In this document: piece by piece, positions 29,308-58,360 of the stretch
How positions within the stretch are numbered: position 1 is the first letter of the stretch
Layout of the letters: every line of letters starts with the position of its first letter
NCBI RefSeq assembly: GCF_010692555.1
Contig: NZ_JAAHHG010000024.1
Location: 1-64,000 of the forward strand
Direction of reading: 5' to 3'
Source of the DNA: Okeania sp. SIO3B5
Lineage (GTDB): Bacteria > Cyanobacteriota > Cyanobacteriia > Cyanobacteriales > Microcoleaceae
Length of the DNA: 64,000 nt
The notes under the pieces: generated by a model
Told to the model about the DNA's origin: nothing
Database searches by the model: none
The model's input: the letters and a program-made list of their open reading frames with translations, nothing else
Made by a program: the position numbers and the translations under genes

Positions 29308-31101
29308 ATGTTACTGAAATCCCAAACAATTATCAAGCAAGAAGAGTTGGTGTCTATCTTAGAGGCTCAACTCAAGAAAGCAAAATCCAGACTGACTGAG
29401 CTAACAAAAGCTGATACCAAGATTAAATCAGTTGTTGCAGAACTAGAATCATTACTGACTGAGCATCCAGACTACAAACTGCTGGTAAGCGATCGCCTCA
29501 AGCTCGGAGAGAGTGAAGCAGACCAAACAGGGCCAGTGCGAATTGAAATTGAATCAGTAGGCAAAACAGCCGAATATACTGAATCAGAAATAGAAGCTTA
29601 TGACAGTTTATTCGGTGACGGACCACCACAAACCGCACCCAAAACTGAGGAAATAATTACTGAGCATACCGCACAAATTTTAGAAAATACTCCTGAACCA
29701 ATTGAATCGCCATACTCATCTGAAGCAGAAATAGCTCCATTAATTGAAGCACATGACCAACTCTCTCAAAGAAATCAGCCTACGGAACAAGAAATTTCCG
29801 CATGGGATTCTGGACATGAGCAGGTACAATCCGTAGTATCGCCGATTCAATCCGACGAAGAAGAAAAAATTGCTCTGGTTGAAAAAGTATTGTCAGAACT
29901 GGATACTTTTGAGTTTTCAAAGACCCGAGGCATTCCCAAGATAGCTATGTACATAGAAATTAAAGGCAAATCTTTGGGGATGATTTTTACCGACAAAGGT
30001 AATCTGTTAAGCACTATCGAGCTTGAAGAAAACTTGATTAGGACTTACGCATTAGATTTGCCTTTACTCCTAAAGGATGTAAACGAAGGTAAATCTATCA
30101 CTCTTGATAATTATTGCTTATCTAAAAAATCAGAAGTAGGCAAAGTTCAGCAGCAAAACAAGCCTACAGCTAAGGCTACTGTCGAAACTTTAAAAGCTGC
30201 TGATGTTGAGCAAGTAGAAGATGAGTCAATGGTTCAAAAACCTGAACCCACGCTCTCGCAACTGAAGGAACAATTGTTGAGCAAAAAGAACAAATCAGAA
30301 TTAGAGGAATTTAAAGCATCCATAGGTGCACCTATGGCTCTTAAGATTTGGGAAAGCTGCACCCATGCCGAGCGGAATCTCATAAAGTGCATCAACGTCG
30401 TCGCGGATTCCAAGCGAGCTGCCTTACCCTTTGACTTAGTTGGTTGGCACAACGCTCTAGGGAAGCTAGAAATAGCCCGGTATGTAGGTTTTTACTTATA
30501 TGGCAAGCAAGTAGAGGATTCCAAGCGGGTTATCTACTTAGTAAAGCATGACACATTCAAGATAGTAGATAAGCGATCGCTTAAAGGAGTAGATGCAAAG
30601 TCTCAAAAACCTTGCCCGACTGACCTTGTGATTAAGTTAGAAGCTGCATTACAAGCACAACCAGAACCAGAGCAACCTACAGCAGAAGAAATAGCATCTA
30701 ATAACTTTACTGGACTTGAACCTACCCCAAAGCAGAATGGTTCCGAAAATGGAAAACAGCAAGACTTCAGTCAATCAGAGCAAAGCGACGTGGTACAAAC
30801 AGAACTATATCTTAAGGTTGAGCAACCAGCACCATCTAAAAAGACTGAAGTTATTCCTACACCGTTGTTAGAGACAGTTGCAGGTGAGATCAAAAAAGTC
30901 AACCCTGAATTAACTTTTGGCTATGACTCCAATGGTAAATCAACCTTTCTAACCGTTTACCATGGGACATCCTATATAGGTATCTTTGAGGACGACGGTG
31001 TGGATTTATATTCTTCTAATACCGCAAAGATGTTGCATCACGGCTTCACAGAAGAAATGATTGATGCCTTAATTGAGATTGAATTATCCCCAAAGGTATA
31101 G
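29308..31101 (+). CDS. Modular protein with coiled-coil N-terminus, -1 frame continuation likely
   Basis: Family not recognised. It has 597 residues in the zero frame. The N-terminal helical module (1-65: EELVSILEAQLKKAKSRLTEL..ADTKI) matches the start of the 1243-residue methyltransferase-containing protein at 53917-57642. It is followed by an acidic linker, a small domain with GIPKIAMYIEIKGKSLGMIF (about 210-230), a helical domain (335-440) and another small domain near the C-terminus (VNPELTFGYDSNGKSTFLTVYHGTSYIGIF). The frame ends at TAG 31099 just after a CCCAAAG heptamer. The -1 frame is open through the next ORF, which continues with a domain seen in the 1243-residue protein. RBS AGGAGA. 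Confidence 0.8.
   Translation: MLLKSQTIIKQEELVSILEAQLKKAKSRLTELTKADTKIKSVVAELESLLTEHPDYKLLVSDRLKLGESEADQTGPVRIEIESVGKTAEYTESEIEAYDSLFGDGPPQTAPKTEEIITEHTAQILENTPEPIESPYSSEAEIAPLIEAHDQLSQRNQPTEQEISAWDSGHEQVQSVVSPIQSDEEEKIALVEKVLSELDTFEFSKTRGIPKIAMYIEIKGKSLGMIFTDKGNLLSTIELEENLIRTYALDLPLLLKDVNEGKSITLDNYCLSKKSEVGKVQQQNKPTAKATVETLKAADVEQVEDESMVQKPEPTLSQLKEQLLSKKNKSELEEFKASIGAPMALKIWESCTHAERNLIKCINVVADSKRAALPFDLVGWHNALGKLEIARYVGFYLYGKQVEDSKRVIYLVKHDTFKIVDKRSLKGVDAKSQKPCPTDLVIKLEAALQAQPEPEQPTAEEIASNNFTGLEPTPKQNGSENGKQQDFSQSEQSDVVQTELYLKVEQPAPSKKTEVIPTPLLETVAGEIKKVNPELTFGYDSNGKSTFLTVYHGTSYIGIFEDDGVDLYSSNTAKMLHHGFTEEMIDALIEIELSPKV
31089..31095 (+). promoter_or_regulatory. CCCAAAG slippery heptamer, candidate -1 frameshift site
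   Basis: In the zero frame this reads C CCA AAG, the X XXY YYZ pattern, three bases before the TAG stop. A 7-bp stem (31123-31129 with 31137-31143) lies 27 bases downstream, further than is usual for a stimulator. A -1 shift enters the open frame ending at 31628. Confidence 0.45.
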
Positions 31102-47183: not shown

Positions 47184-50100
47184 CTAGCCCGCTACCCAAT
47201 CATCAGGCGGCCCCAAAGCCAACCGCAACCCCTCAAAAAACTCCACAGGCATCACCCCCAACAACCCACTCAACAAACCAACAAGCGTATCAACAGATAC
47301 AAAATCCAGGATTTTTCGGCCAAAAATCTTAACTACCTCCACCACTTCAGTCGCTAATTCCTCCGCCGTAATCAAATTATTCTTCAAATCCTGCAACAAA
47401 GTAGGTATCCAAACCTCCAAAAAAGTCCAAGCATCCTCAAACTCAATATCCACATCAGTTTCACTGATGTGCATTTTGTTATTATCTAATAAAGAATATA
47501 TAACCATTTTGCACATAGACTCAATTCGCCTTAACCCTTCTGGAGTAATAGTTTTTGCCTTTCGCCCTACACCACTACGATCTATACCAATTATTTTCCC
47601 TAATTTCTTTTGAGTAATCTCCTCGCCTTCTTTTACCAAATTAAACACAGCCTCAACCAACCGACGCTTAACCTGCTCACCTTTAGGAGCCGCTTGTGGA
47701 CAAATATCAAAACTACTCACAACATTAACCGTTGCCCCCGGATAATTCCGGATTATTTCAGCAATTTCCATTTCATTGAAAGGAGCAACATGATAAATAG
47801 TTAATCCCTCATTCTGACGACGGTTCGCCCTTAGACGAGCATAAGTCTGAATAGTCTCATTCATATTCTGGCGAACCACCCACTCCCCATACCTACCTGT
47901 CAACTTATTAGGCACAACAGCACATCCTGTAGTTGCTTGCCATTGAGCCGCCATAGCAGACAAATTACGAGTCTGCTTACCCACACAAATCAATAAATCA
48001 TCCTTTTGAGATTGATTACTAGCACGGTTATCCCGGAAATGATACCCCAAGCGTCCAATATTTTCTATATCCTGATATTGCTCAATATGTCCCTGGAAAT
48101 CAAACAAAGTAGACGAATTAGGTTTATTCTCTTGATCAGCGATCGCCTGCACCAAAAACTTAATTCGATTACCATTAGCATACCGAGAATCATAACGACG
48201 CTGAGTACCACAAGCACCCATATCAGTAATTAAGTTGATGGTAAGATTACTATAGTCAGGCAATTCCATCTCCACCACCAAAATATACTTACCCGCCTCA
48301 TCAAACTTAGCCTGCTCCAATTCTTCACGAATTGCCTCAACAGTTCTAGATAAATTTTGATACCCTTCGTCTTCAACAGTTCCCGGCCAATGAAGAAGGA
48401 AACCCTCAGCAATAGCCAACTCTTCAGTAAGTGATGAAACTCTTTCAGGTGATGGTTTACCCAAGCCAGTAAGTCGCTGTAAGTCCTTCACATCAGCAGT
48501 AGCATCAATATAAATATTAAACGCCGAATTCTTGACTAACTGTTGTGGATGACGACTTGGACGAGTAAATGTCAATTCTTTATTTGGTGTAATTCCCAAA
48601 CTAATTTTTTTGTTACCGCAAAATACATCAAGCAGAGGGGAAAGCCAATTGAGATGGACTTTTTGTTGAATCAGCATTTGTTTCTCTGCTGGAGTTTGAG
48701 TAGCAGAGAGCATAGATAAACTTTTCTCCAACCATGAATAGACCTCATCTCTGATATTCTCTAAGCTAGGGATAACCCATTGATTTTTACATCCAACAAC
48801 TATGGGGTCTCCATCTTCATCAAACTCATTAGTATAAAGCCATTCATTTTTCCCCCAAATATCACTTCCAGAGCGCTTGACATTTGTAGTTGTATTTGTA
48901 TTTTCTGGCCGTGAGATTTTTTCTATTTTCTGGGAAAGAATTTTCTGATAATTCACCTGGTTTGTTGTATCCCAATAAGAATAATGAGAAACTGAACCTG
49001 TGATTAAATCGAATGATTCTAGTAGTAAGTTATTTAGTTTTTGTAGATGGACTTGTTTGTGTAAAGAAAATTGACCATCTATGATTGGAGATGTAGCTAA
49101 ACAGTCCTTAGAATATTTTTTGAGAATTTTTTTGTCTAGTTTGTCTCTGTCTGAATTTTTCAATGGGAGAGAGAGAGTCAACCACATTTGAGAATAAGCT
49201 TCAAATATTGCCCCGTCTAATTCGGTGCGAGTAGGTAATTTGGCCATCACATCAATATGAGAATCACCATATTTTTTATTCTCTGCATTAATAGAAGTGA
49301 TCGCTTTCTGGAAAGGAACTAATATGGCCTTTAATGCCAATTTCAACTCATCAGGCAAACCAGCACCATCAACTTTATCTGCGACAAACTTCTGAATTTC
49401 AGTCAAACTTACCTTCAGAGTCTCAAACGGAACAATATTAGCCTCAGCTTCTTCAATCACCAAAATATCCGAATGCCGAGATTTACCAAAACCAGGTACA
49501 GATGAACTGATATAATTTTCCTCTTCTTGAATGCGTTGCCTTTCTAAAATCAGAGGACAGCCAATATCACCATTCTTATCATACAGCAAAGGGCAAGTTT
49601 TACAAATAGGTGAATCTTTGCCTGCAAAGACTTGTATACCTTTTTTCTTGGTTTCCAGAAAAGTATATGTTTCAGGGCAATTAGGGGGTATGTCAGGTAT
49701 TTCATCTTTTTTGACTCGGATTAAATGAGGATTTCCTAATGCTGTGAGTCTATTCTCATCTTTTTTCAATCCTAAATGTTTGCCAGGAAGAGGTATGAAT
49801 TTACGTTCAATACCAGCGACAGAGGGATTTCGATAATTAGCATCTAAGTAAATAATTCTTGGGTATTTTTCATCAATGACATTACCCATTTCATCAAATT
49901 CGATATCAGGTTCAATACCAAACAAGGATAAGTCTAATTTATCTACACTCCAAGACTTACCACCTCCGGCGTAGATATTCCACAGAATATTTCTGAACCC
50001 GTTCAAATAAGCTTCAGCAGTGAGAAGTGGTAAATCTGCACTACTGCTGATAATTATTTGAGGACAACCCATCTCTACCCATTTCTGAAACTCTGGTAAA

Positions 50101-51368
50101 TTTCCTGGTTCATATTTTATTGTGTTCTTCTCCAGATTGCCTTTTTTGTCAGTGCTTTCCGTTACCGATTTTAGTTTAGACTGTTTGAATGGACCAAATA
50201 ACTTCCTGGTTTTACCTGCAACCCAGTCAGCAAAACTTTTGCCCGCTTTAGTTTCTCCGATTTTATCCCACCATTGCTTTTTTGTTATTGGCTTTGATTT
50301 ATGTTGTGGTTTCCACTCCGGCAGTTCTACGCCAGCATCGTCAGCCAACTCTTCAACTATCTCCACAAAATCCTTGCCTGTAGGTGTGCCATGCTCACCT
50401 TTTGAAAACCAACGATATTGCACCGCACCCCCGCCTTCCTGACAACTATGACAATACCAGGAATTGTCTTTTGTATTTACTTGAAATGCCGTACCGCTAG
50501 ACCCGTTGTGTTGTGGGCAGTAACCAACTAATTTATTGCGCCCATGCTTTTTAAATTGATGCTCGCTCCAATTATATATATCTTCTGTATTTAGTCTGGG
50601 GAGGATGTCCAGCTCTAGGATATCGGCTAAGGAGTCAGCAGTGCTGAGAGTAGGTAAGGCTTGTCTCTCTAGTTTACGTTGTTCTAAGTATCGCTCCCGT
50701 TCAGCTTTCTTCTCTTCAGCTTTTCTAGTAGCTTTTGCTTCCTTATCGGCTACTTCTAGGAGTACATCTAGGATAGGTTGTGGAGCGATCGCTACCTCTG
50801 TATCTGCCGGAGAATTAATCCATACATATTTACCAGTTGTTGGATGGTAGGAGGGTGGCAGAACGGACTGACAATAATTATAACGAAATTCTAAAAGTTC
50901 GTCTGTGTCAGTTTTTAAGCCCTTCCACTCTCGGATTACAGCTCTGGTAAAGTTGGCTAATTTTTCCCTATACTCCGGCGGGATTTGAAATGCTATTTGA
51001 TACCGTCCTGGTTTTCCTGATGTCCAACTTACAGATTTAGGTAAATCTGGACAAATAGCCTTGAGAATGGGTTCGGCACTAGCACCATCTACATCTATGG
51101 CCAGCAGTCCATCGGATATCTCACCTAGTCTTACCCCATATCCAGAATCAAAAGCTGTATATGGTTTACCTTTTTTGCTGATTAATTTTTGTCCTTGGGT
51201 TATTGCAGTAGCGATCGCTTCCCTACTAACTGGCTCTTCATGTTGCCAGTTACTTCTATAGGGGCGTTTTTCCCTTACTGGTGTCAATGCCAAGTTAGCA
51301 GGGATAATTCCTAAACCTTCTGCTATTTCTGAGGCTCTGGGGTGGCGATTAAATATTTTCCAATCCAT
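47184..51368 (-). CDS. Plasmid replication protein with primase-polymerase domain
   Basis: This 1394-residue protein opens with an archaeo-eukaryotic primase-type (prim-pol) domain (about 1-215: GVRLGEISDGLLAIDVDG, SWTSGKPGRYQIAFQIP). A zinc-finger of CHC2 type follows (GYCPQHNG..WYCHSCQEGG, about 278-312), then a region with P-loop-like NIYAGGGKSWS near 468, a Cys cluster CKTCPLLYDKNGDIGC near 595, a helicase-like half (about 950-1180), and a winged-helix segment (EEITQKKLGKIIGIDRSGVGRKAKTI, about 1240). The layout resembles large cyanobacterial plasmid Rep proteins (the CyRepA1-type group; to be tested). It probably initiates replication of the plasmid. It is followed by the deleted IS element. 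Confidence 0.8.
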   Translation of the reverse strand: MDWKIFNRHPRASEIAEGLGIIPANLALTPVREKRPYRSNWQHEEPVSREAIATAITQGQKLISKKGKPYTAFDSGYGVRLGEISDGLLAIDVDGASAEPILKAICPDLPKSVSWTSGKPGRYQIAFQIPPEYREKLANFTRAVIREWKGLKTDTDELLEFRYNYCQSVLPPSYHPTTGKYVWINSPADTEVAIAPQPILDVLLEVADKEAKATRKAEEKKAERERYLEQRKLERQALPTLSTADSLADILELDILPRLNTEDIYNWSEHQFKKHGRNKLVGYCPQHNGSSGTAFQVNTKDNSWYCHSCQEGGGAVQYRWFSKGEHGTPTGKDFVEIVEELADDAGVELPEWKPQHKSKPITKKQWWDKIGETKAGKSFADWVAGKTRKLFGPFKQSKLKSVTESTDKKGNLEKNTIKYEPGNLPEFQKWVEMGCPQIIISSSADLPLLTAEAYLNGFRNILWNIYAGGGKSWSVDKLDLSLFGIEPDIEFDEMGNVIDEKYPRIIYLDANYRNPSVAGIERKFIPLPGKHLGLKKDENRLTALGNPHLIRVKKDEIPDIPPNCPETYTFLETKKKGIQVFAGKDSPICKTCPLLYDKNGDIGCPLILERQRIQEEENYISSSVPGFGKSRHSDILVIEEAEANIVPFETLKVSLTEIQKFVADKVDGAGLPDELKLALKAILVPFQKAITSINAENKKYGDSHIDVMAKLPTRTELDGAIFEAYSQMWLTLSLPLKNSDRDKLDKKILKKYSKDCLATSPIIDGQFSLHKQVHLQKLNNLLLESFDLITGSVSHYSYWDTTNQVNYQKILSQKIEKISRPENTNTTTNVKRSGSDIWGKNEWLYTNEFDEDGDPIVVGCKNQWVIPSLENIRDEVYSWLEKSLSMLSATQTPAEKQMLIQQKVHLNWLSPLLDVFCGNKKISLGITPNKELTFTRPSRHPQQLVKNSAFNIYIDATADVKDLQRLTGLGKPSPERVSSLTEELAIAEGFLLHWPGTVEDEGYQNLSRTVEAIREELEQAKFDEAGKYILVVEMELPDYSNLTINLITDMGACGTQRRYDSRYANGNRIKFLVQAIADQENKPNSSTLFDFQGHIEQYQDIENIGRLGYHFRDNRASNQSQKDDLLICVGKQTRNLSAMAAQWQATTGCAVVPNKLTGRYGEWVVRQNMNETIQTYARLRANRRQNEGLTIYHVAPFNEMEIAEIIRNYPGATVNVVSSFDICPQAAPKGEQVKRRLVEAVFNLVKEGEEITQKKLGKIIGIDRSGVGRKAKTITPEGLRRIESMCKMVIYSLLDNNKMHISETDVDIEFEDAWTFLEVWIPTLLQDLKNNLITAEELATEVVEVVKIFGRKILDFVSVDTLVGLLSGLLGVMPVEFFEGLRLALGPPDDWVAG

Positions 51369-51557: not shown

Positions 51558-53210
51558 TTATCGCGGAGCGGAACGGATGATAAGATCGCCAAAAATCATC
51601 TTCATGTGGTGTTCAACCCAACCTATGCACTGACCGTCGGCTTTCATCAGGCGGAGTAAATATTTTTGATACGCAACTTTGTCAGCCACAGTAGGTTGCG
51701 AACCAAATATGGCACCGTGCATCCATTTGTAGGGAGGCCAGTATCCATAATGTATTTGGTATTGTTTATCTGCCCAATTAGGTTTGAGTCCTTGATGGTA
51801 AGCTTCTGTGAGCAATTCGTGATAATGGCGATATTGCTTGACCTTATCTGCTGTGCAGCGTAGGAGTTTAAATGTTGTGTCTGTGGTGGAGGAGAGTTTG
51901 GAAACAGAAAATTGGTAACCGCAACAGCCACAAACCTTATCAAAGTTGTAAGTAATCGCACTGCATTGAGGGCAGATTTTTGTAGGAGCTTCACTTGGCA
52001 ATGAGTGTTTTGATTGTCCAAGAGTAAATGTTTTTACATCTTCAATGAATCCAAATTGTTTAATTAATCCTGCTTGGTCTAAAATTAGGCAGTCATATTT
52101 TCCTGGGGATATCCTTAACCCACGCCCTATCTGTTGCCATGCCTTAGCCTTAGATTTAGTGGGACGACATAATAAAACGCAAGAAATGGCAGGGACATCA
52201 AAACCTTCTCCCAATGCTTCACAACTTGCTAAGACTTTGATAAGTCCTGATTGTAGTTGGGAGTAGATTATTTCTCGCATTTTTGTGGGCATGGTGCCGT
52301 CTACACTTGCTGCGGGGATGCCAGCTTGATTGAAGGCAGTAGCGATCGCTTTGGCATGATCCACATTGATAGCAAAGGCAATGGTTAACCGATTGAGTGC
52401 TAATCTTTTCCATTCAGAAACTATGGAATTAACTACTTCGGGTACATTGCAACGCACTTCTAAGTCAGAGTTGTTAAATTCTCCGGCAATAGTCCTTACG
52501 CCTTTGAGGTCAGCACCATCAACGCTGTAGTAGATTGGGGGTGCAAGATATCCTTTGAGGATAAGTTCTCCTGGAGTTGGAGCTGCTATGAGGGTATCGA
52601 ATAGGTCAGACATTGCTTCCCTTTTTGATAGTCTCCAGGGAGTAGCGGTTAAACCTATAAAGGTAGTGTTGTTAGATTCATAATTTTCTAGTTGTCTCTG
52701 TACGACTTTGTTCCAGGCGGTTTGATGTGCTTCGTCTATTAATACAATGTTGGGGGTAAACCAGTTAATTTTCCTTCGACTGAGAGTTTGAGCGCTGGCT
52801 ATTTGAACAGGAGCATTGCGAGTTTCTTTGTAGCCTCCAGCAATGACTCCACATTCAATGCCGAAGTTAGCAAATTTATTTAGTGTTTGCTTGATCAGCA
52901 CATCACGATGGACGATGAACAATATAGTTTTGCTACTTGAATACTCTTGATAGATGAAGGAAGCAGCAATTATAGTTTTTCCAGCTCCAGTAGGGGCAAC
53001 GATAAGTATGCGACGATAATTTTTCTGCCGGAGTTGATATAGATCGTCAATGACTTGGAGTTGGTAATCTCTGAGCTGAGGAATCTGTGATGGTGCTATA
53101 ATTAGCCTCAGAGATAATTGTTTATCTTCTTCCATTTGAGTATGTTGCTGTAACCATGAGGGTTGCAGCAGTTTTGTTTTTGTTATGGATGCTATTGATG
53201 GTGTTGTCAT
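51558..53210 (-). CDS. SF2 DEAH-type helicase with zinc ribbon
   Basis: This 550-residue protein has the superfamily 2 motif set: Walker A APTGAGKTII near 75, DEAH in LIDEAHQTAW near 157, TATPWR near 180, and motif VI QIGRGLRISPGK near 362. The C-terminus has a zinc-ribbon with CPQC and CGCCG (about 415-432). It resembles restriction- or UvsW-like helicases of plasmids and phages. It precedes the replication gene in the same direction, so it may support its replication or recombination. Confidence 0.88.
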   Translation of the reverse strand: MTTPSIASITKTKLLQPSWLQQHTQMEEDKQLSLRLIIAPSQIPQLRDYQLQVIDDLYQLRQKNYRRILIVAPTGAGKTIIAASFIYQEYSSSKTILFIVHRDVLIKQTLNKFANFGIECGVIAGGYKETRNAPVQIASAQTLSRRKINWFTPNIVLIDEAHQTAWNKVVQRQLENYESNNTTFIGLTATPWRLSKREAMSDLFDTLIAAPTPGELILKGYLAPPIYYSVDGADLKGVRTIAGEFNNSDLEVRCNVPEVVNSIVSEWKRLALNRLTIAFAINVDHAKAIATAFNQAGIPAASVDGTMPTKMREIIYSQLQSGLIKVLASCEALGEGFDVPAISCVLLCRPTKSKAKAWQQIGRGLRISPGKYDCLILDQAGLIKQFGFIEDVKTFTLGQSKHSLPSEAPTKICPQCSAITYNFDKVCGCCGYQFSVSKLSSTTDTTFKLLRCTADKVKQYRHYHELLTEAYHQGLKPNWADKQYQIHYGYWPPYKWMHGAIFGSQPTVADKVAYQKYLLRLMKADGQCIGWVEHHMKMIFGDLIIRSAPR

Positions 53211-53267: not shown

Positions 53268-53855
53268 CTATGTAGGGGGAGGTGTAGGATTTTCCCCCTT
53301 GATTATTTCTAATATTTGGCGATACGGTAATTTAGCAGCGAGCGCTCTCTCTACCGCGCGAACTTTTTTTTGTGGACATCCCACACATTCAATTACTGGC
53401 TTGCCTTTTTTATATATTTGTTGGCCATTTTCTCCTTGCTGATACCAGCAATAGCGCCAATACCAATGTTCAGGATTATTAGGGCCTCGCTTCTCTTTCC
53501 CTTCTTTGATGCGGGGGTACTCAACAAGTCCAGTTTTGGTTTCTACTGATTGTGTGTACTTATTCAGCCACCCGCTGCCTCCCACTGGCTTATACTGGGA
53601 TTTTTCGATAGTATTTGCTATCGAAAACCTAGACTCTTTGTTGGGCGGGTTTCCTGGAGTTTGAATATTTTCATTTTTTTGATGGCCATTATCTAGCTGA
53701 CGCTTTAATTTAGATTCATTGAGATTGAAAGGATGGCGTTTGTTTGGTGGTAAGTCACCACCATTATTAGGTGTACTCTCAGCTACATATTGTTGTGGGC
53801 TGTAAGTAATAGTTTCTTGTCTTGCGAACGCACTCTGTTGATGATATAGTTTCAT
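53268..53855 (-). CDS. Unknown protein carrying the hairpin in its coding sequence
   Basis: This 195-residue protein has a disordered polar N-terminus (1-90) and a compact C-terminal domain (about 95-190: GWLNKYTQSVETKTGLVEYP, WYWRYCWYQQGENGQQIYKKGKP, VGCPQKKVRAVERALAAKLPYRQILEII). The Trp/Tyr-rich strands plus a basic helix look like a small nucleic-acid-binding module found in cyanobacterial accessory proteins; I cannot name the family. Codons for FSIANTIEK overlap the third copy of the GATAGC hairpin. It lies upstream of the SF2 helicase. Confidence 0.6.
   Translation of the reverse strand: MKLYHQQSAFARQETITYSPQQYVAESTPNNGGDLPPNKRHPFNLNESKLKRQLDNGHQKNENIQTPGNPPNKESRFSIANTIEKSQYKPVGGSGWLNKYTQSVETKTGLVEYPRIKEGKEKRGPNNPEHWYWRYCWYQQGENGQQIYKKGKPVIECVGCPQKKVRAVERALAAKLPYRQILEIIKGENPTPPPT
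53602..53627. promoter_or_regulatory. Third copy of the GATAG/CTATC hairpin, inside a gene
   Basis: The stem TTTTCGATAG / CTATCGAAAA is a perfect 10 bp with loop TATTTG. One base differs from the copies at 11366 and 28770, which extend to 12-13 bp. It lies within the coding sequence of the 195-residue protein. Confidence 0.65.
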
Positions 53856-53916: not shown

Positions 53917-56900
53917 TTAAAATACGTTTTGCTCGTTGTCGTTTGATTTTGGATAGTCTGGCTTCTTTCCACTTGTGGAGCCAGTCTGGGGCTTTTTTAC
54001 TTGTTCTGAGGTCTGAGTATCAGAGTGTTGAGTTGTTGTCACACCAACAACTGGTTTGAGGTGATAGAACTTATAAGGGATATTCTCTGCCACTAAAAAT
54101 GCTTCTAGGTCAAAGTCATATTTAGCTAGTTCGCCAATTAATTTTTGTTCTATTTCTAGTTCGTATTTCTCGTTGTGGTGAATACTGCCTACAACTGTGC
54201 CGTAATGAGTTACAGTGAGGTCTACTTCATCATGCGTAACTTTAAAGCCTTCAAGTTTTTCGACTTCAGCTTTAATGACATCCATCCAGGTAGGATCGTC
54301 GTCATCTGCTTCACTGAAGAAGTTAAAGTCGTCTTCTTCCTCAACTGTAGGTTCATTTGCTACAAGTGTATTGCTATCAACAAACTTCTCTTCACTTGGT
54401 TTCAGAAATTGTTGATTTTTCACGTCATTCAGTTTGTTCCAAGCAGGAGAGTAGTAGAAAAGTTCACTGAGTAGTCGTTCGGCAATTTCAAACTCTTTAT
54501 CGTCCCAATTTTCTTTGGTAATTAATTCTTTGATGTTTTGATTAGAGATGATATAATTTTTGGGATTATCTTCATATTTCTCATTGAAAATATCCGTAAT
54601 TAAATCCTCTGCTAATATTGAATATTTTTCAAATAATAGATGATTTAATTGTTCATCTATCACTATGTCTGAAGAATCAATAACCTTGATAGTTCCTAAG
54701 TCATCACCGAGCCAATCTCCCAATCGTTCATCATTATAAAATTTGAATATTTTTCCCTGACGAACTATTACTAAATCATTCATGTTTGATAAGGAGTGTA
54801 GAGCATTTTGGATAATATCTGCTTTGGTAAATTCCACTCCTAATTTACCTATACCCATTAGGTAATCATTTGGATTTATTTCTCCTTGAGATTGAATATC
54901 TTCTATTAAGTTGTCAATGTCGATACTATATGTATCTCTGAGTAGTTGTTTTTCCCGTTCTGCTAGTTCTAATCTTTCATCATCTTTAAAAAATACTGTG
55001 CCAAATAATTCTTTGTCTTGGTGTATATATGCTGTAGTCGAATTATTTCTGGTGGCAATTAAGTCGGTATTATACCCGTTCAGGATATCAATAAAATCAT
55101 CTAAACTATCGATGACTTCTTGATCGAACCACCATGCTGCTCTTTCTACAGCCTCTTCTATAGTTTTTGCATGGTTGGAAAATGCTGTTTCATGGCTTAT
55201 GAAGAATAGACCTTGACTTTCGTATAGGTCGGTGATTTTTACCCAGTCACTACTATTTTTATCATCTGTTTCATAGAGCATTACTTGGCTATCATCAATA
55301 GCTTCTAATACCCATTTTTCTGATACTAATGGTTCGAGTTTTTTGATGATTGGTATAGTAGTTTCAACTTCTGTGGGTTGACTATTTGTTGAAGTTTTTA
55401 CCTCTCCATATTTGCTAAAAACTTCATTAAATTTGTCTGCGTTTTCTCCCCAATAAACTAGACAATGGGATTGTCGTGCGGGTAGTTTTGGTTGGTAGTT
55501 CGTATCTAAGAATTTGATGCGTCCTTTCCAAAAACAGATGGGTTGGTTCCATAGTGGGGCAAACCATTTAGTATCTGTTGATGCTGGCAGGAGGGCGATC
55601 GCTTCTGTTGTCCTACCATCATTAACTTCTGAAATTAGTTTATCGACCCATTTACCAGGACAGCTATAGGGTGGGTTCATGAATACTTTCCCAAACCATG
55701 CACAAGCAAGTCCATCTTCTCTTATGGTTTTGTGGTATTGTGCTGGTATGTGTCTTCCGTCGTCAGAACAGGGGTCTAGGTCTATGCTTCCTAATACTTT
55801 TTCAACTAATTCAACAATTTCGCGTGGTGTGTACCAACAGTCGGAAGACTTTGAGGAGGTTTTGTTTTTGTTAGGTTCACTAGCACTTTCTGTTTTTGCT
55901 AAACCTTTTAAGGTTTCAGCAAACTCATGCATATCTCCCGTGCAGTAAACTTTTTCATACCCAGGGCGAAAATACCAATAACTACCGTCGTTATAGCCTA
56001 CTTCAATACTTTCTTGATTTGGGATATAAAAAGTGCCCAAATTACCTACAGTACAGCTTGAATGGCTTTTGACAAACTTACCTCCTACTTCTTCTGGCAC
56101 ATCGTACAATCTCTGTAGAATGGCTTCTGCTGCATCGGGTTTACCTGCTTTGAATTCTTCCCAGATAGCCTCCGCAAATAGTTTAGTAGAGTTATCTGGT
56201 TGAATCCACTTTCCCCCCTCGGCAGATTTTTTAAACTTGATTTCATGCTCATCTTTGAGATCGTCCGGAATTATCCGGAAATACCTTTTAAAAGAACCTT
56301 TTTTTACTTCTCCGGTACTACTGTTGTACCAAGTGACAGTAGGAACCGTAGCTACATCTACTATCTCAGCAGTGTCTATTTGGGTATTTTCTGCTGTCTT
56401 AAGCGGAGGAGTTATGCATTTCTGCTCCGCTAAAACTAAATCCGTCTTTAAACCTTTCAAGATTTCAACAAAGGCAAGAACGTGGCCAGAACAGTAAACT
56501 TTGTTGCGACCTGGACGGATATACCAAAAGTTACCTTCGCTATGACCTACCTCGATATCTTCATTTAAGATCTGGAAAACGCCAAAAGTTTCATTTAGAT
56601 GGAAAGTACCGTAAGTACCTAAATTACATAAAGAGCTAGTAAACTTACCTCCTACTTCCTCTGCTGCTTCGTACAATTTCTGTAGAAAAATTTCTGCGGG
56701 CTTACCTGCTTTAAATTCTTGCCATACCGCATCTATCAAGGGTTGAGTGGTGGGATTGATATCTTTACTCCACCTCTTGGCGGATTCAGATTTTTTGAGA
56801 CCTACTTGATGTATATTGTGCTTGCTGTTCCAAAGTAAGCGGAAATACCTTCGTTCGTTCCCTGCACTTACTTCTCCGCTGATGGAGTTGTACCAAATGA

Positions 56901-57642
56901 CGTTGATATCGTTATTGTCATCCGTGTCAGATGTAGGGGGTGTCGATGCGTTTTCCTGTGTGGAGTTGGTTTCGATATTATTGTGATGTTGTTCAAAGAA
57001 ATTGTGAGCAATTCGACACAATACGCCAAGAAAATTTAAGCCTTGAGAGGCAGACGAGTATCGTTTTCCGTCGAAAGTGGTGTATAGACATTTCCAGCCA
57101 CCGGGGTGATTATGAATGCTTAATGTGGCAATAGAATATAGTTCTCCACTATAGCTAGGTTCTCCACGTTTACGTTTAGGGTGCGGGGCAAAAAGTTCTG
57201 CTGTTAGATTTTCAAAATCTGCATTAAGAACTAGATTTTTAATTAGGCAGAATGAGACAAGTTCTCCGAGTTTCGATTGCAGATACATCTGAGAACCTAT
57301 TTTTTTGTCTAGACTATTATCATCTAGACAATTACTACTTTTACTACTTTCGGCGTATTTTGAGTTCTTTGTATCCGAGGATACTTTTTTTTGTTCGTCA
57401 TCACCATCAATTTCAATAACTCGCGGTGTTGGTGATATTGGCATTGGCAGGATAAATCCGAGTAGATCGGCAACTTCGGATCTATACACGGGATATTTTG
57501 TGAGTATTGGAGCCAACTCTCCTGTTAATGCAGAAATTTGCGTATCCGCATTTCTCATGTCTTCAAGACGCTCTTGCTCTTGCTGTAGCTGGATTTGAAG
57601 AATCCGCACCAGCTCTTGTTGGCTTTGTAGATGTAGTACCAT
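53917..57642 (-). CDS. Modular protein with Dam-type adenine methyltransferase
   Basis: About 1241 residues. An N-terminal coiled-coil module (about 1-65, QQELVRILQIQLQQEQERLEDM) matches the 29308 protein. Two copies of a roughly 150-residue module follow (about 245-390 and 425-585), each with WYNS..GEV, YFR, IWxEFKAGKP and WYxRPG..KVYC. Then comes a DNA N6-adenine methyltransferase domain of the phage Dam type (about 603-745: CWYTPREIVELVEKVLGSID, VFMNPPYS with NPPY, LLPASTDTKWFAPLW). The C-terminal half is acidic and ends with another small module (WMDVIKAEVEKLEGFKV). ATG 57642 is chosen over TTG 57648. Dam plus duplicated modules in one chain is unusual. Confidence 0.8.
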   Translation of the reverse strand: MVLHLQSQQELVRILQIQLQQEQERLEDMRNADTQISALTGELAPILTKYPVYRSEVADLLGFILPMPISPTPRVIEIDGDDEQKKVSSDTKNSKYAESSKSSNCLDDNSLDKKIGSQMYLQSKLGELVSFCLIKNLVLNADFENLTAELFAPHPKRKRGEPSYSGELYSIATLSIHNHPGGWKCLYTTFDGKRYSSASQGLNFLGVLCRIAHNFFEQHHNNIETNSTQENASTPPTSDTDDNNDINVIWYNSISGEVSAGNERRYFRLLWNSKHNIHQVGLKKSESAKRWSKDINPTTQPLIDAVWQEFKAGKPAEIFLQKLYEAAEEVGGKFTSSLCNLGTYGTFHLNETFGVFQILNEDIEVGHSEGNFWYIRPGRNKVYCSGHVLAFVEILKGLKTDLVLAEQKCITPPLKTAENTQIDTAEIVDVATVPTVTWYNSSTGEVKKGSFKRYFRIIPDDLKDEHEIKFKKSAEGGKWIQPDNSTKLFAEAIWEEFKAGKPDAAEAILQRLYDVPEEVGGKFVKSHSSCTVGNLGTFYIPNQESIEVGYNDGSYWYFRPGYEKVYCTGDMHEFAETLKGLAKTESASEPNKNKTSSKSSDCWYTPREIVELVEKVLGSIDLDPCSDDGRHIPAQYHKTIREDGLACAWFGKVFMNPPYSCPGKWVDKLISEVNDGRTTEAIALLPASTDTKWFAPLWNQPICFWKGRIKFLDTNYQPKLPARQSHCLVYWGENADKFNEVFSKYGEVKTSTNSQPTEVETTIPIIKKLEPLVSEKWVLEAIDDSQVMLYETDDKNSSDWVKITDLYESQGLFFISHETAFSNHAKTIEEAVERAAWWFDQEVIDSLDDFIDILNGYNTDLIATRNNSTTAYIHQDKELFGTVFFKDDERLELAEREKQLLRDTYSIDIDNLIEDIQSQGEINPNDYLMGIGKLGVEFTKADIIQNALHSLSNMNDLVIVRQGKIFKFYNDERLGDWLGDDLGTIKVIDSSDIVIDEQLNHLLFEKYSILAEDLITDIFNEKYEDNPKNYIISNQNIKELITKENWDDKEFEIAERLLSELFYYSPAWNKLNDVKNQQFLKPSEEKFVDSNTLVANEPTVEEEDDFNFFSEADDDDPTWMDVIKAEVEKLEGFKVTHDEVDLTVTHYGTVVGSIHHNEKYELEIEQKLIGELAKYDFDLEAFLVAENIPYKFYHLKPVVGVTTTQHSDTQTSEQVKKPQTGSTSGKKPDYPKSNDNEQNVF

Positions 57643-57644
57643 AA

Positions 57645-57875
57645 TCAATTTTTTTGATATTGTTTGCAGAATTCCCCTTGGTTGCAGGGGATGGGAATTC
57701 CGTGTACATCAGAGATAGTGGTGGGTTGCGGGGTTAAATTGAAAATCTTGTATATACGAATCGCGATCGAAAATAACACAACTGCAGTTATATACAACAG
57801 TATAGTTTGGTATTTTTTGAACGAATGATCGCAGTTCAAGATTTTTAACATGAATGCAATATCACTGTGATGCAA
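57645..57875 (-). CDS. Small one-span membrane protein
   Basis: Up to 76 residues, with one hydrophobic helix (YQTILLYITAVVLFSIAIRIY) and a short exported tail with two cysteines (IPIPCNQGEFCKQYQ). Its stop lies just before the methyltransferase gene's ATG. The start may be ATG 57875 or ATG 57851 (MLKILN). Function unknown. Confidence 0.5.
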   Translation of the reverse strand: MHHSDIAFMLKILNCDHSFKKYQTILLYITAVVLFSIAIRIYKIFNLTPQPTTISDVHGIPIPCNQGEFCKQYQKN

Positions 57876-57952: not shown

Positions 57953-58360
57953 CTATCCGGTTAGTACAACCCACTTTTGATTCAGTTGATGCGCCAATCG
58001 GCGTACTTTGCGAGATGGTTTGTTATGGCCATTAATCCAGTGGCCAATAGCTCTAACCGAAACTCCTAGAGCCTCAGCTAATGTATCTCTGGAAATATTA
58101 AATTTTTTGAGCAGTTGTAGTGGGTCCAATTCTGCTGTTTCGATTTTTGGAGGGAACGGTAGTGGCCACTTATTCAAAATCTGTAAAAGTTCCCAGGCTA
58201 GTCGTTGAATAGTCCGGCTTGGTTTTGTTGCGCCACACATCCATCTCGATACGGCAGATGGATTTACTCCTAGAGCTTTGGCTAGCTGCGTTTGGGATAG
58301 CCACTGGAATTGTAAAAGGAGGGAGACTGGACTTGTCTCCTCAAAAAGTGCTATACTCAT
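57953..58360 (-). CDS. Regulator with two tandem HTH motifs
   Basis: This 135-residue protein has two similar helix-turn-helix units: FQWLSQTQLAKALGVNPSAV then SRWMCGATKPSRTIQRLA (about 18-55), and FNISRDTLAEALGVSVRAIG then HWINGHNKPSRKVRRLA (about 87-124). They are internal duplicates, sharing LA(K/E)ALGV..(S/G)(R/H)W..G..KPSR. A single chain could bind a direct repeat or two half-sites. Confidence 0.75.
   Translation of the reverse strand: MSIALFEETSPVSLLLQFQWLSQTQLAKALGVNPSAVSRWMCGATKPSRTIQRLAWELLQILNKWPLPFPPKIETAELDPLQLLKKFNISRDTLAEALGVSVRAIGHWINGHNKPSRKVRRLAHQLNQKWVVLTG

Follow-up and report, generated by a model that had tools for sequence, protein, structure and literature searches.

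What is the role of a phage-type adenine methyltransferase that shares one polypeptide chain with duplicated modules, in an element carried by a marine cyanobacterium? The gene lies in a 64,000-nucleotide stretch of DNA from Okeania sp. SIO3B5, referred to here as the window. Its open reading frame begins with an ATG at position 57642 (1241 residues) or with an alternative in-frame TTG at 57648 (1243 residues). The chain comprises two modules of about 150 residues, followed by the Dam domain and by about 475 residues that match no family. The modules, at protein residues about 248-398 and 436-581, are 45% identical over 155 columns (E 2e-46), which is far beyond chance. Each consists of unit A, about 62 residues long and mostly basic, and unit B, about 80 residues long and acidic. 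The regions of the protein are as follows:

53917-57642, reverse strand: whole module-Dam protein, 1241 residues
57298-57642, reverse strand: N-terminal region, about residues 1-115; 69-80% identity between the relatives and the window
56905-57303, reverse strand: insert, about residues 114-246, missing from all seven relatives; position approximate, read from the sequences
56713-56901, reverse strand: module 1, unit A
56449-56694, reverse strand: module 1, unit B
56152-56337, reverse strand: module 2, unit A
55900-56127, reverse strand: module 2, unit B
55486-55866, reverse strand: Dam domain (PF05869)
53920-55329, reverse strand: C-terminal region, family unknown; 89-95% identity among relatives

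The initial annotation described a Dam fused to duplicated modules in a single chain of 1241 residues, and the open reading frame, the module alignment and the match to PF05869 all agree with this description. The EFKAGKP and RPG..KVYC motifs that it reported as duplicated are indeed found in both modules, as VWQEFKAGKP and IRPGRNKVYC in module 1 and as IWEEFKAGKP and FRPGYEKVYC in module 2. The gene is not an assembly artefact because it recurs in related genomes. The start of a 597-residue window protein of no known family (29308-31101, forward strand) resembles the N-terminal region of module-Dam, with 40% identity to its residues 7-63 over 57 residues. The answer preferred here, at somewhat less than even confidence, is that the protein is a solitary N6-adenine methyltransferase of the element's replication cassette, and that the A and B units are its localisation domains.

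The enzymatic part of the chain belongs to an established family. The window Dam matches Pfam PF05869 (E 4.3e-17; 62.8 bits, above the cut-off of 28.1) and phrog_111, 'DNA methyltransferase' (E 1.1e-36), and does not reach the equivalog cut-off of TIGR01712, phage_N6A_met (55.7 bits versus 97.05). The NPPY motif is intact at protein residue 656. In an alignment of 16 Dam domains NPPY is present in the window and 13 others, NPPF in two, and YTP in all 16, so that the catalytic motif expected of an adenine methyltransferase has not been lost. The domain is predicted to be active and would methylate adenine within a short target motif. GATC counts neither support nor exclude GATC as the target: the window contains 135 GATC sites versus 242 expected, a ratio of 0.56 that is the lowest among the 16 four-base palindromes, and the cassette has no dense GATC cluster. 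A Pfam scan of the module-Dam protein matched PF05869 alone, and no family match to HsdS, HsdM or HsdR was found in it. PF05869 is present in 15 of 291 genomes of the class, and a relative of the Dam in 12 of 61 genomes of the window's family.

The proposed cassette contains module-Dam and four other genes:

57953-58360, reverse strand: double-HTH regulator, upstream of module-Dam in all seven relatives
53268-53855, reverse strand: 195-residue protein of no known family, the next gene downstream of module-Dam
51558-53210, reverse strand: DEAD/ResIII helicase, RadD-like by its best NCBIfam match, which is below that family's cut-off
47184-51368, reverse strand: Prim-Pol primase-polymerase with a DnaG zinc ribbon

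The module pair or a part of it occurs in 5 of 98 related genomes, the window's own included. Seven related loci were found in four genomes titled Okeania sp. (SIO1I7, SIO2F4, SIO2C9 and SIO2B3), which makes eight with the window; four of these are in SIO2B3. When genomes were scanned with Dam plus the C-terminal part, 16 stretches were obtained; seven of them encode a relative and represent six distinct loci, five from Okeania and one a distant Dam from Beijerinckiaceae. Module-Dam is followed by a 195-residue-type gene and a helicase in all three relatives with long enough contigs (L014, L015 and L016), and the primase comes after the helicase in L015 and L016. The L016 contig stops inside the primase, that of L014 about 0.5 kb past the helicase, and those of the other four relatives, all from SIO2B3, within the module-Dam gene. 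L014 (15021-17223, forward strand) has the 195-residue-type gene in three pieces or copies, and one of these contains internal repeats. The 195-residue protein was also considered as a detached form of the C-terminal module of the Calothrix Dams described below, which it resembles by eye; this was rejected after hmmsearch gave E 2.7 for one relative and profile comparison a probability of 3%.

The helicase invites an interpretation of the cassette as a restriction or defence system, in which the Dam would be paired with a ResIII-type helicase. The ResIII match is consistent with this, as is the match of the helicase part to a type IV restriction enzyme profile in PADLOC (E 1.2e-30). The best NCBIfam match of the helicase, however, is RadD (140 bits versus a cut-off of 720), the cassette includes a primase-polymerase, and family scans of the helicase, the 195-residue protein and the Dam protein detected no nuclease domain. 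A restriction pair is regarded as highly improbable. A search for a type III Res subunit with a nuclease found none, the 550-residue helicase protein giving helicase-type matches only. That no nuclease domain was detected in the scanned cassette proteins supports the reading of the enzyme as a solitary methyltransferase. The window also encodes a MobA-type relaxase, a T4SS coupling protein, an actin-like protein and a tyrosine integrase. The contig does not close on itself, and the element may be a plasmid or an integrated conjugative element. In one SIO2B3 copy (C194) an apparent NRPS gene was recognised by eye at a distance of about 12 kb from the cassette, and at least some copies therefore appear to be chromosomally integrated.

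The module array varies among the eight loci. Two modules are present in the window, L014 and L017, and one in L018 and L019. The arrays of L015 and L016 consist of one module and a lone unit A, and that of L020 of one module, a spacer and a lone unit A. For the region after Dam, protein identity is 89-95% in the 15 measurable pairs. In module 1, across all 28 pairs, identity is 56-97% for unit A and 48-93% for unit B. When the L015/L016 type is compared with the type of the window, L014, L017, L018 and L019 (10 pairs), unit B has 59-65% protein and 71-76% DNA identity, and the unit A that precedes it has 83-97%. In L020 both units are unlike those of all other loci. The simplest reading of this mosaic pattern is that single units were exchanged by recombination. 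The SIO2B3 assembly alone contains at least four different arrays. Its contig ends pair up, those of L017 and L018 just after '...HIPAKYHKTI' and those of L019 and L020 after '...NDYLMGIGK'. Such pairing is how an assembler behaves where different upstream sequences meet a shared repeat, and at least four copies are therefore present in the assembly; a mixture of strains could also be their source.

The variation of the array could be neutral. It would be so if the Dam were a general anti-restriction methylase that shields the element in transfer and has no need of its modules. The phage-type family of the enzyme, its listing by PADLOC as an orphan methyltransferase, the relaxase and coupling protein encoded in the window and the reduction to one module in two relatives are all compatible with such a role. 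Each of the eight loci, however, retains one or more complete modules in an open reading frame, and many columns are invariant; a purely protective methylase is regarded as unlikely. Localisation by the modules is supported by the intact Dam motif and by the constancy of the C-terminal part beside the varying array, and targeting gains weight because the modules exchange beside a constant enzyme.

Neither unit has a match in Pfam, PHROGs or NCBIfam. The initial annotation would have been contradicted by missing catalytic residues or by a module already described with a known role; the motif is present and the module is in none of these databases. A description of the module-Dam fusion was not found in the literature covered, which includes PMC10899382, PMC4916379 and PMC9950141 and few subscription journals; the text of PMC10899382, the CyRepA paper, does not mention a methyltransferase or methylase, a primase, DUF3854 or synteny. 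Phage-type Dam is already known, and what these sources lack is the A and B units and their fusion to it. The module pair has no tblastn match among PLSDB plasmids and INPHARED phages, and IMG/VR, searched with the whole protein and the module alignment, yielded no confirmed relative. Among 291 genomes of the order the module profile matched four, two of them by weak single-unit matches.

The two units show no similarity to each other or to the Calothrix C-terminal modules, and they differ in distribution. Unit A occurs without unit B as the lone copies in the Okeania relatives and in the Dam protein of genome G016, which is found by a profile free of G016 rows at E 2e-8; the first A copy dominates this match and the second alone gives 0.07. 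Among 388 genomes of the class the unit A profile matched 14 at E <= 0.05, and the match is good in the window's own genome only; G016 is not one of the 14, though its two A rows belong to that profile. The other 13 were treated as chance, with E values of 5e-4 or worse and stop codons in several. Unit B has likely relatives in proteins of 200-400 residues without Dam, from another taxonomic family (f33) of the same order. Its profile, A3, matches 68 of 192 genomes and 12 of 388, counts that are partly circular since the profile includes one row (L029) from the protein family that it then finds. With that row removed, E values are 3e-5 for L029, 1.4e-4 for L050 and 0.001-0.006 for others (4844 ORFs), so that homology of unit B with the B-like domains is likely, not certain. 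The Dam-less proteins (L049:910-1818 and similar loci L050-L116) form a many-copy family of unknown function, with up to 13 matches per genome, in which the B-like domain is accompanied by repeated upstream segments.

Charge also distinguishes the units. All eight loci have a basic unit A in module 1 (pI 9.0-10.1). Unit B, by its pI of 4.4-5.7, is acidic, and the pI of the second unit A falls below 7 in three of six cases. The basic first A units fit DNA binding; the acidic unit B and some second A units do not. The structure model of the whole module has a pLDDT of 58, too low for a structure search, and that of unit B alone a pLDDT of 75 and a pTM of 0.64. For the unit B model Foldseek returned no significant match (best E 0.14), and no DNA-binding fold was matched significantly, the DALI-scale Z being below 8 throughout. 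The match to the T4 MotA DNA-binding domain (Z 5.8, rmsd 2.9, 76 aligned) ties with frataxins and is below Mediator chains. By sequence, no solved-structure relative of the module or the Dam was found, the single Dam match (E 0.74) being chance. The structure searches thus decide nothing about a DNA-binding role of the modules.

Related Dams with other partners are more informative. The closest named ones are on four Calothrix plasmids and are 61-66% identical to the window Dam; 1037 phage records were matched by it, all below 60% identity. Plasmid2 of Calothrix NIES-4101 encodes KilA-N and Dam, with a C-terminal module in two copies after them. Dam is followed by a single copy in p3 of PCC 7716, and is likewise accompanied by one copy in plasmids 3 and 4 of NIES-4105. 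In the two NIES-4105 plasmids a Tn7-like element lies at a matching place inside the Dam gene (L119:3775-12909 and L120:3775-13032) and separates an N-terminal fragment from the rest. The G016 Dam (L028) is 75% identical to that of the window and has unit A on both sides. The gene before it (L028:20-1285, forward strand) is a 422-residue frame that opens with short exact repeats and contains roughly three copies of another module. The G029 Dam, 65% identical, has an N-terminal extension of about 450 residues of no known family. Among less closely related cyanobacterial Dams the fusion partner is DUF3102 or a set of repeated segments, SH3/KOW-like by eye; such repeats precede Dam in L079:1384-3294 (reverse strand) and L070:916-3282 (forward strand) and have no Pfam match.

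Targeting by the modules gains further weight because close relatives of the Dam carry other accessory domains, KilA-N among them. KilA-N is a known DNA-binding domain, and its N-terminal position in a close relative offers the best analogy for possible DNA binding by the modules. The localisation reading is also supported by unit A flanking the G016 Dam and by the KilA-N and other repeats of related Dams. The strongest rival is that the modules serve in docking only and attach the Dam to the primase, the helicase or the 195-residue protein without touching DNA. The constant cassette, the acidity of unit B and the B-like domains in many Dam-less proteins agree with docking; against it, the DNA-binding KilA-N replaces the array in a close relative and unit A is basic. 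It is considered doubtful as the whole explanation.

A link to replication is suggested by the neighbouring genes. The replication genes next to or near Dam are Prim-Pol and the helicase in the Okeania cassette, CyRepA1 in NIES-4105 (336 bits versus a cut-off of 200; plasmid 3 tested), DnaB in NIES-4101 and PCC 7716, a DUF3854/D5_N primase in G016, and DnaB in G041, the Dam of which is more distant. This recurrence supports a replication-associated methyltransferase, and points to one Dam clade whose members have exchangeable accessory domains and are located in or near replication genes on cyanobacterial plasmids and elements. The G029 Dam weakens the explanation: it has a transposase downstream and no replication association, on a contig that starts some 0.35 kb upstream of the gene.

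According to the localisation reading, which accords with the initial proposal that the modules may bind DNA or protein and direct methylation, the A and B units would keep the Dam at selected DNA, with the element's own origin or freshly replicated DNA as the most likely site, through direct DNA contact or through docking on replication proteins. Since the enzyme stays constant while its array loses, gains or swaps units, co-resident element copies could come to bear different marks. In its boldest form, which is judged improbable, A and B would be recognition units swapped between co-resident elements, sending the constant Dam to different sites or origins and giving each copy its own epigenetic mark. 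If the modules do localise the Dam, the arrays provide a natural set of variants for how a methyltransferase reaches chosen DNA, and they bear on whether an origin is marked by the mobile element that carries it.

Phage-type Dam enzymes are commonly regarded as stand-alone proteins. Module-Dam has the same catalytic domain family as the phage N-6-adenine methyltransferases (PF05869, phrog_111, TIGR01712), but differs from them in its 1241 residues, module array and long C-terminal part. The Calothrix plasmid Dams likewise stand beside replication genes with accessory modules, which are KilA-N and another C-terminal module rather than an A-B array. The G016 protein shares Dam and unit A with module-Dam; it differs in having unit A on both sides, no unit B and a nearby primase of another type. 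The specificity subunits of type I restriction systems (HsdS) are exchangeable modules beside a constant enzyme, and the likeness to them is one of working principle only. In module-Dam the modules and the enzyme are in the same chain, and exchangeable targeting, if true, would parallel type I specificity switching within a single chain, with a link to replication in place of restriction.
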